Origin: Phoenix dactylifera
Taxonomy: Eukaryota > Streptophyta > Magnoliopsida > Arecales > Arecaceae
DNA length: 64,000 bases
NCBI RefSeq assembly: GCF_009389715.1
Contig: NC_052399.1
Coordinates: 17,983,646 to 18,047,645, forward strand
Reading direction: 5' to 3'
Shown here in pieces: positions 4,569-7,930 of this stretch; positions within the stretch are counted from its first letter, which is position 1, and each line of letters starts with the position of its first letter. The notes beneath the pieces are model-generated. The model worked only from the letters and a program-made list of their open reading frames with translations, ran no database searches and was not told where the DNA came from. The position numbers and the translations under genes were made by a program.

Positions 4569-4631
4569 ATTCAAGGCAAGGTCCGACGAACCGGCGCGTA
4601 CCAGCCAGTTCGAACCGGTCTGGCCTGTAAC

Positions 4632-5838
4632 TAGGCCTGTTAACGAGCCGAGTCGAGCCCGAGCCTGGGAGGCTTGGGCTTGGCTCGTTTCACATAAGCT
4701 TGGGTTCGGGCTCAGGCTTGGGCTCAGGCTCGGGACCGAGCTCTGTATTGGGCTCGAGCTCGGGCTTGCTTGGTGAAACAAAGGCTCGGGCTTGAGCTCG
4801 TAAAGCCCGTTTCAATTACGAGCTCAAGCCCGAGCTCGGTCGGCCTCAGGCTTGGGCCCAAGCCCGGGCTCGGGCTCCCATATGAATCCTCAAAATTCAT
4901 AAGCGAACCCATCAAGCTGCCGTTGGCTTTCACTCAACGGGGAAAGAGAGAAGGAGCATCAATGACGTGATGAGTCATGCTTCTCCCACAAAAAAAAATT
5001 CCGCTGTTTCGCCCACGCTTCTCTCCGTCATGCTACAAAACCCCCTTCTTCTCCCCCTCCTCTTCCCAAAATGTCCTTCTCCCCCTCCTCCGCCGCCGCC
5101 ACAGCCGACGACAACGCCACGCCTCCCCTCCGACCTCCTCATCCTCCTTCTTCCTCCGGAACCTCAGCAACCTCGGCCTCGGCTATGCCATCGCCGCCGC
5201 CCTCGGCGTCCTTGTCCTCCTCTCCACCGTCCTCCTCGCCTCCTACATCCACTGCCGCGCCCGCGCCCGAAGCACGAATCCTAATCCTAACGGTGGCGGC
5301 GCCGGCGGCAACTTCAACGGCGTCGTGCTGCCCGACGTAATCTTCGTCGCGGAGGAGGAGGAGGACGACGAGGACAACAATGGCGAGGAGGGCGGTCGAG
5401 GCTCCGCACCCACCGGGCTAGACGCGGCAGCGATTAGCTCCTACCCGAGGTTCCCGTTTAGGAGAGGAGGTTTAGCATTTGTTATTTGCTGACAGCATAA
5501 AAACTTAAACTATTGGCCAAATTGATATTAATATTTTACAAATTGTACCAAATAGGAGACTAAGAGCTAGAGAGGAGGTTTAGCCGTTTAGGAGACTAGG
5601 AGAGCTGGAGAGGAGGGCCTTGGCCCGTTGGATGCAGGATTTCCAAATGATCTCGACTGTCGAATTCCAAGCTCATTTGGTTGTGTTAAGTCACGAGCTC
5701 ATTTGGGCTCATGAGCTGCTCGGGCTCGAGCTCGAATTTAAACAGGCCTCATTTTGAGCTCGGGCTCGGGCTCGTTTGACTAACGAGCCGAGCTTTTACC
5801 GAGCCGAGCCCGAGCAACTCGGCCCGTTAATAGCCCTA
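4632..5838. mobile_element. inner hAT-type element carrying a host gene fragment (Pack-type)
   Basis: The left end reads TAGGCCTGTTAACGAGCCGAG and the right end, in reverse complement, TAGGGCTATTAACGGGCCGAG; these are good terminal inverted repeats of hAT (TAGGG) type. The 8 bases outside them are CCTGTAAC on the left and TTTGTAAC on the right, a 6-of-8 target duplication. About 250 bp at the left end and 150 bp at the right are dense in GAGCTC/GGGCTCG motifs, the typical subterminal repeats. Between them sits a piece of an ATL RING-H2 gene. No transposase is present, so it would need one in trans. It inserted into the outer element and is therefore the younger of the two. Confidence 0.8.
4977..5492 (+). 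pseudogene. captured 5' fragment of an ATL67-like RING-H2 E3 ligase gene, RING domain missing
   Basis: The open frame (171 codons) contains the hallmark N-terminal half of an ATL ubiquitin ligase. There is a single membrane segment at about residues 68-91 (NLGLGYAIAAALGVL...), then a short CRARAR cytosolic step, an acidic run after VLPDVIFVAEE, and the GLD motif at 147-149 leading into SSYPRFPFRRGG. In intact ATL genes the RING-H2 domain follows directly; here the homology stops at about 5470 and the frame ends six codons later. The likely native start is the ATG at 5071 in another frame (MSFSPSSAAA), so a frameshift near 5120 separates it from the membrane segment. It cannot act as a ligase. 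It lies entirely between the inverted repeats of the inner hAT element, which indicates capture by the transposon. Confidence 0.75.
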
Positions 5839-7930
5839 TTTGTAACCGGTATGCCGGAGCAGTAGAAACCGGTACGGGCTGGTTCTGTGCCGGAGACGAA
5901 GAAGACGAAGAGAAGGAGAGAGAGCGCGGGGAAGAGAGGGAAGGAGGAGACCCGTGGCTGCCATTGGAGAGCCGTGGAGGGGTGGCGGAGCCTGCGAGGG
6001 GCAGGGACACGGCCGCGGCCTCGGCCTCCGCCACGCCCCTTCGGGTTCCCCCGCCCCCCTGCGGGCTCTGCCGTCCTTCTCCGGCCTCCGCCGCCCTTCC
6101 GCGGCTCTCCGATGGCGGCCACGGGTCTCCTCCCTCCCTCTCTTCCCCGGCTCTCTCTCCTTCTCTTCTTCTTCTCCGGCTCTGGCGGAAAAAAGCTGGC
6201 CGGTTCGTACCGGCCGGTTCCGGAACGAATTGGAACCATACCGTTCTGGTAGGCGACCGGTACGCCTACGGATCCGGTACGGTGAAACTTGATTCAAGGT
6301 ATTAGCTTGCATAACTTCTGAGCTTTCTAACTTCTAGTGCCTGAAGAAAGAATCTCTTGGCTTCTGGCTCTGTGAGTGATATATTGCTGAAATCCTACCT
6401 TTGCCACGAAAACTGCATGCCATTATATTTTTTTCAGTTTCTCTAGTCTTGCATGTTATTTACCCTTTTGACCATCAAATCTCAGTAGTTGAAATTAACA
6501 TCAAAACTCTAGATTCAAGACATGAGCAGGTAATTGATGCTATAGCATACTTTGATTTGCTGTATCTTATGGCAATTCTTTTTATACTATAAGGTAGTGT
6601 TCTTTCGCAGTCTGTTTCCTCACTACTAACTGAATAGATGGGTATCAAACTTGGTGAAAGGGTTGGATATAGCACTATTCATTTGCAACATCAAACAGAT
6701 CTGGTATGGCCTCTTTCCTTTTCTGGCCATTGGAATCTTTAGTTGAATATTGCTTGAAATTCAGCAGCATCTAGGTTGTATTATTATTAGACTATTCTAA
6801 TGGACACAAGGTTGTTAGCTTTCTTGTTCACTTGGGGTATGGTTGACGAGGAATTTTCTCCTAGTTTGCTTTTCTCTCTCCATATGTATTATTGCTATGT
6901 GAGCAACATCATATTTCTAACTGATGGGTTGTTGCTTTGAGAAATGATGGATGATCGTCTTCCGATCGGCTATAGGTATTTGTTACAATTCAAATATGAT
7001 GCTTTCCTTTCTCATATATTGTTTAGTTGGCGAAGTGAGAAATGCATTATTCTGAATCTTTCTTAATTATCTCTATTAATCATGTATAAAATTCATGACC
7101 AAACTAGACTCATCCTAACTACCATGGTGGCTCTATGAGTTCTTCTTCACCCATACTTTTAAGGGACTGCATACACTGTCAATGCCAGTCTCTCTGTCCT
7201 TTAATGTAAAAACTGAGCCACATGCCCTTGGTATTCATTTCTCATTCGGATGCATTTTTACTCACTGTAGCTCCGCATTTTCCTTAATTGTCACGTCACC
7301 TTTACAAATGCATCATGTCTAACACCTTACGTCAGCACGTCGCTACATATTGTACTTACCATTTTACAATTTTTGGTGCTCATCTTCTGTGCTTGTCTCT
7401 TATTCGTAGCCTAACATTTTGATGCATACAACAATTTGGTTCTTACTACTGCATTGGTGTTTTTTTTGGAACAAATCTCAAAGGCATAGAATGGTGATAT
7501 AACACTATGGGCATCTTGAATGTTGCTCTTTTATTTGCTAGATGAGCTAAGTAATTGTAGAAGTTTATCATGCTAGCAACACCATGATTTGGTAGATTTT
7601 CTTTGCAGAATGTCTCTTGATTTCACCTTTTCAAGCATATGAACTACTCTTTTGTTTGGCATCAGAAACTACTCCTTCCTTTTCTTGGTTTTGGACGGTT
7701 TTGAGCAATTTGTTCATTAATCCTTTATCTGTTTTTTATGTTGTCTTGTATTGGTGTCACAATGGTACGATGAGGTTCATGAAAGATCTATTTCAACAGA
7801 CATGCTAGCTGGCCTCTTGAGAATGGGTATATAGTGTAAACTATCTTATTTAGTCCTTACATGGTGTTGCTCTCTAAAACTATATCTCTAAGCTAATTCG
7901 TGCATGAATGTATCGCATCCAACTACTCAG

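Follow-up and report, generated by a model that had tools for sequence, protein, structure and literature searches.

Rice Pack-MULEs possess gene pieces inside long terminal repeats, are flanked by 9-bp duplications and in some cases give chimeric transcripts. The transposon family described here likewise holds gene pieces inside its terminal repeats, but differs in its 8-bp duplications and its short ends. Pack-MULEs of rice are named in a 2026 review (PMC13317346), and the phrase 'hAT superfamily' is absent from the consulted part of that review.

Pack-hAT elements with 8-nt duplications have been described in maize and rice (Gisby and Catoni 2022, PMC8903248), where capture by fusion of neighbouring insertions is proposed and some examples are read by the authors as insertions fused in this way. 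Going by the consulted part of that paper, the present family, putatively non-autonomous, resembles the maize and rice elements in its 8-nt duplications, internal gene DNA and multi-copy clusters; unlike them, it has another end sequence, lives in another genome, combines one end family with several unrelated cargos and includes one nested copy. The hAT transduplications of grapevine, Hatvine-6 (PMC2528002), are similar in their constant hAT ends and variable inner part, which in Hatvine-6 matches host introns and exons. Hatvine-6 elements have a common transposase coding sequence in the excerpts of that source, and the copies of the present family read here measure about 0.4-1.4 kb. In the frog, Pack-hAT-N8_XT took a 5'UTR fragment to three chromosomes with distinct duplications, and microhomology-guided gap filling is proposed for single-copy cases (PMC8277862, in part); unlike the present family it has an animal host, three copies and one cargo. 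Pack-hAT elements are therefore, as far as the consulted parts of these sources go (PMC8903248, PMC2528002, PMC8277862), already described in plants and animals and not new in principle, which corrects an earlier note on this DNA that had counted hAT among the rarer gene-capturing plant transposons. A literature search for ATL/RING-H2 fragments in palm transposons gave nothing relevant among the matches listed, a result that leaves absence unproven.

The window, i.e. the whole stretch of DNA analysed, comprises 64,000 nucleotides of the date palm Phoenix dactylifera. Its features of interest are given in Table 1. Sequence comparison favours, at a probability of roughly 0.93, a Pack-hAT family that would have captured an ATL gene short of its RING, spread with this piece to seven loci, placed one insertion in a second hAT-like element and taken up other cargos as well. 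A scan of the window detected no tRNA and no Rfam match. Elsewhere in the window, a 264-bp unit is present in two tandem copies at 96% (2228-2748).

Table 1. Positions of the two elements and their parts within the window
Feature	Position	Strand	Sequence or remark
Outer left target-site duplication	4569..4576		ATTCAAGG; identical to 6292-6299
Outer right target-site duplication	6292..6299		ATTCAAGG; identical to 4569-4576
Outer hAT-like, putatively non-autonomous element, split by the inner element	4577..6291	+	L027, L030 and L032 without insert; 12/19 relatives with exact 8-bp duplication
GC-rich long inverted repeat inside outer element	5889..6186		arms 5927-5990/6086-6149 at 91%; 5889-5930/6145-6186 at 86%
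Inner left target-site duplication	4624..4631		CCTGTAAC; L027 empty site for comparison
Inner right target-site duplication	5839..5846		TTTGTAAC; 6/8 versus left
Inner putative Pack-hAT element with ATL cargo	4632..5838	+	1207 bp; left end at 221 places; sister copies with 8-bp duplications
Left arm, common to short MITE-type copies	4632..4876	+	query 1-245 of genome search
Stretch of ~100 bp, in window copy alone among seven aligned	4878..4982	+	alignment
Open frame of 171 aa	4977..5492	+	ATL frame only from ~5120 onward
Captured RING-less ATL fragment, from 5' leader and start codon through membrane segment and linker to GLD motif	4989..5458	+	89% to G000:C42:1297702-1298196
Copy-specific stretch replacing second captured segment	5459..5585	+	15-bp internal duplication 5462-5476/5570-5584
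Segment adjoining right arm	5586..5700	+	115 nt; 31 genome matches at 74-100%; in many cargo-bearing copies
Right arm, common to short copies	5695..5838	+	query 1064-1207 of genome search

The outer element is bordered by an exact 8-bp duplication, as the earlier note had reported, and its terminal repeats match in 14 of 30 bases, with a short CAAG core. Its relatives in this genome amount to 548 candidates, 40 of them scored. Among the 19 relatives fetched, the duplication is exact in 12 (L022, L024, L028, L029, L031, L033 and L035-L040) and reaches 7/8 in three (L025, L026, L032), and none is recovered in four (L023, L027, L030, L034). Scoring under fixed ends gives a single relative of the 19, at 7/8; the 12 exact duplications appear once variant left ends are allowed, and a control with shifted right sides yields 0 exact duplications in 430 pairs. 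The left end of the outer family (L022-L040) varies between CAAGG, CATGG and CAGCG, with a nearly constant right end, CCTTG. The same family is characterised by a large internal GC-rich inverted repeat (5889-6186 in the window), and minus-strand matches resembling this repeat are seen in outer relatives.

At the point where the inner element is inserted, L027, L030 and L032 read GGCCTGTAA unbroken, i.e. they show the empty site. In L027 this site reads GGCCTGTAACCGGTATGCC and is followed by CCGGTATGCCGGAGCAGTGGAAACC, a near-match to the window sequence after the insert. The empty-site relatives belong to those without exact duplications (7/8 in L032, none in L027 and L030). A precise empty site in relatives of the outer element means that the nesting is real, and the hAT-in-hAT arrangement first proposed from the letters of the window is borne out. 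The host of this insertion is a copy of another hAT-like element, unrelated to the inner family.

The flanks of the inner element, CCTGTAAC and TTTGTAAC, agree in six of eight positions, the right copy having TT where the left has CC, and its terminal repeats match in 20 of 25 bases. The inner duplication and TAGGG-type ends claimed earlier are upheld by sister copies with 8-bp duplications; moreover, copies with boundaries off 4632 and 5838 had been named as evidence against the element, and other copies instead agree with the boundaries of the window copy. The ends of the family are given as TAGGSCTRTTAACGAGCC, with boundaries at TAGG...CCTA. Its left end, TAGGSCTRTTAACGAGCCGAGCC, has 221 exact matches in the genome (106 + 115) and its reversed control 0; together with the exact duplications in relatives, this rules out chance inverted repeats.

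A genome search with the inner element gave 773 candidates, of which 40 were scored, and 75 matches, many of them consisting of the two arms only, i.e. short MITE-type copies. Nineteen loci of the short type were fetched. Both ends are recovered in 12, all of which (12/12) have exact 8-bp duplications, a count that covers these 12 of the 19 loci and in which L070 and L071 have common flanks. Eight cargo-bearing copies were scored, with duplications of 8/8 in five, 7/8 in two and 5/8 in one, the last being copy C1; no right end is recognised in C4a and C17. The segment adjoining the right arm has no match in the short copies, L053 or L062. In C4b (about 4040-4065 of L047) the right end looks deleted via a CCC common to the element and the target duplication CCCAAAAA. 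Tandem duplications that include family elements are present in L047 (1182-3477, 1.15 kb) and L054 (589-4001, 1.57 kb), at 97-98%.

Elements of the hAT superfamily have short ends of the TAGGG/CAAGG type. The short terminal inverted repeats of the inner element are of the CA/TAGGG end type of hAT. From its ends and 8-bp duplications the inner element is classed as a putative non-autonomous hAT-like element; the outer one, with its exact 8-bp duplication and those of its relatives, is classed as putatively hAT-like. The terminal repeats of the outer element, short and imperfectly matched (14/30), speak in favour of placing the inner or the outer element in another superfamily with 8-bp duplications, but 8-bp duplications combined with short TAGGG/CAAGG ends fit hAT (8 nt in all hAT elements of PMC8903248, in its consulted part), and we consider such a placement quite improbable.

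The inner element carries the ATL piece without its RING, as had been proposed from the letters, and the full ATL gene that would serve as donor is found elsewhere in the same genome. This likely donor (G000:C42) is a single 222-aa open frame with a start codon at 1297784 and a RING-H2 domain (zf-RING_2, 1.9e-13). The membrane segment and GLD motif were read by eye, in the donor and, through its alignment, in the fragment. No Pfam family is found up to E=1 in the 171-aa frame, the one frame scanned of this 1207-bp element, and none in the frame of C115. In correction of the earlier note, the captured piece occurs in several copies. Six loci have it in addition to the window and the donor: C115 (L041, G000:C115:193057-194172), C1 (L046, G000:C1:8649921-8651024), two places on C4, of which one is a tandem pair, C17 and C14. 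Three more short matches to it occur in the genome at 73-80%.

In C115, C1 and C4b the ATL part stops at CCGTG, immediately 5' of the first RING cysteine codon, and continues with GATATCAAT. Four copies retain this region; three of them have the right breakpoint CCGTG/GATATC, and the fourth, C14, has it in an altered form. Beyond it lies a second captured segment, of which 77 bp match C17:11425945 at 96%, a stretch without a long frame that is overlapped by a 61-aa stop-to-stop frame; because the match is of 77 bp only, this origin is tentative. The window copy does not have the second segment, and its junction GAGAGGAGGTTTAGCCG is common to C4b, which makes descent of the window copy from the same ATL capture as its sisters most likely. 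A right breakpoint common to four copies points to one ATL capture followed by spread through transposition. A separate ATL capture for each copy is unlikely given this breakpoint and the GAGAGGAGGTTTAGCCG junction of the window and C4b. Copies are 85.5-90.6% identical to each other and 90.6-93.3% to the donor, a star-like pattern.

Copies of this kind could also be segmental or tandem duplicates that never transposed. Tandem duplication is seen at C4b (1.15 kb, 97%) and in L054 (1.57 kb, 98%), C17 shows a local duplication, and the flanks of L070 and L071 are in common. Against duplication as a general origin, flanks differ among the scored copies, most of which are bordered by an 8-bp duplication peculiar to the locus, and outer relatives show the insertion site of the inner element precisely empty. 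We find this origin scarcely credible overall, and for copies with distinct duplications it can be regarded as already refuted by the sequences. Mobilisation of the ATL element after capture is the reading we retain, with the same fragment at several loci, a common breakpoint where that region is kept, and distinct duplications.

The same ends with different cargo, which the earlier note had suggested searching for, are indeed found. Complete at both ends and flanked by exact duplications, L050 and L051 contain glycosyltransferase pieces (Fringe PF02434, 5.4e-10; DUF604 PF04646, 4.7e-42); the same Fringe/DUF604 DNA is present in L048, L049 and further loci. L080, also with both ends and an exact duplication, contains antisense pieces resembling MAX2, the F-box gene of strigolactone signalling (1.6e-17 and 3e-16 versus solved F-box proteins). 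Its MAX2-like (F-box-LRR) part is common to L053 (duplication 8/8) and L062 (7/8), and this cargo has 17 candidate places in the genome, L053, L062 and L080 included. BPS1 was considered as the cargo of L053 and L062 (E=0.04) and dropped, as both loci match the MAX2-like part of L080, whose frames in turn match MAX2 proteins.

Two further cargos are known from carriers in which the two ends were not both seen. The cargo of L052 resembles cinnamoyl-CoA reductase (CCR; 9.9e-28, from a joined query) and matches C3:20592716 at 94%; L055, L077 and other loci have parts of this piece as well, and the CCR pieces are below Pfam cut-offs. Alternatively, L052 could represent the actual CCR gene next to an element. 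L079 (G000:C112:430700-432200) contains a piece resembling SIS-type sugar-phosphate isomerases (2.4e-11), its fetched stretch starting within the left arm. Together with the right end of the element, L079 has two dissimilar frames pointing in opposite directions, and one of these matches the SIS-type isomerases. No Pfam family is found in the frames of L079 or L080. The left end is not recovered for L048, L049, L052, L055, L056, L077 and L078, and comparison recognises no cargo in L078. Taken together, the inner family appears to bear pieces of at least four genes besides ATL, which is new here. C2:16768803, C9:19044241 and C3:20592716 are among the candidate donors of these cargos. In L055 and L077 an apparent intron, seen by eye, lies beside the CCR exon, which points to capture at the level of DNA, not mRNA.

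What the sequence shows is a MITE-type element in which ATL RING-H2 gene DNA, ending just short of the RING, is joined to a short piece from elsewhere. In the mechanism that we propose, each cargo would represent a separate DNA-level capture, via gap filling at the element or fusion of neighbouring insertions, and a transposase from an autonomous hAT elsewhere would have moved the copies. The captured fragments would now mostly drift as pseudogene pieces and may feed small RNAs.

A membrane-anchored protein without ligase activity had been predicted from the open frame of the window copy. That frame exists and the RING is absent, but the window copy is frame-shifted, and C115 and C1 would fit the prediction better. 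A 7-bp deletion at 5119/5120 parts the ATL start codon of the window (5071) from the membrane segment, so this codon is out of frame and about the first 48 residues of the 171-aa frame are not ATL. C115 and C1 possess an open, RING-less chimeric frame that opens with the ATL start codon, includes the membrane segment and GLD motif and ends in a foreign, non-ATL tail, DINQEEL(E/K)RRLGASNFR...; the frame of C14 carries a stop.

The ATL-bearing elements might on this account encode a selected RING-less membrane protein, e.g. a dominant-negative ATL, to which they would owe their persistence. Besides the open frames of C115 and C1, 13 of 28 sequence pairs, donor-window included, show a synonymous excess over the mutation-class null in both directions (P<0.05), 11 of these 13 involving the window or C17. 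The open pair C115/C1 itself, with 14 synonymous and 30 non-synonymous differences, is nevertheless not different from neutral (P 0.17/0.20). Tested against the same kind of null, the private changes of all copies but one out of seven look neutral; the exception, the window copy (P=0.018), is lost after correction for eight tests; absence of a stop is expected by chance (P 0.67-0.93). Of the 23 indels recorded in the coding part, 21 have lengths divisible by three, or 18 of 20 when four 6-nt insertions at donor nt 239-241 are counted, by our reading, as one event. Short repeats of the donor alone, however, predict 52% (>=3), 65% (>=4), 76-77% (>=5-6) or 89% (length-weighted) of indels to be in frame, and 18 of 20 is still unusual if repeats give an in-frame share of 0.5-0.7 (P 2e-4 to 0.036) but not at 0.8. 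With the window copy frame-shifted and C14 interrupted, we hold persistence through a selected protein to be very unlikely. Equally little weight is given to the more specific proposal that the C115 and C1 Pack-hATs would encode a novel ATL protein, devoid of the RING and extended by a foreign tail, that competes with the parental ATL ligase. Capture by a hAT element would then have created a protein family that selection maintains in certain copies and that decays in the rest, the window copy included. Evidence for selection on the ATL-derived frame is weak and mixed, and none is claimed; the reading as a Pack-hAT family with mostly drifting fragments is maintained.

The family offers a clear example of a hAT MITE family turning gene-capturing, with constant ends and several unrelated cargos between them. 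The history of one cargo is fixed by a common breakpoint, its likely donor is identified, and the nesting is proved by the empty site. One more genome thereby joins those with reported Pack-hAT elements. Since pieces of MAX2-like and ATL genes appear among the captured DNA, it becomes possible to test whether actual donor genes are affected through small RNAs or antisense transcripts.
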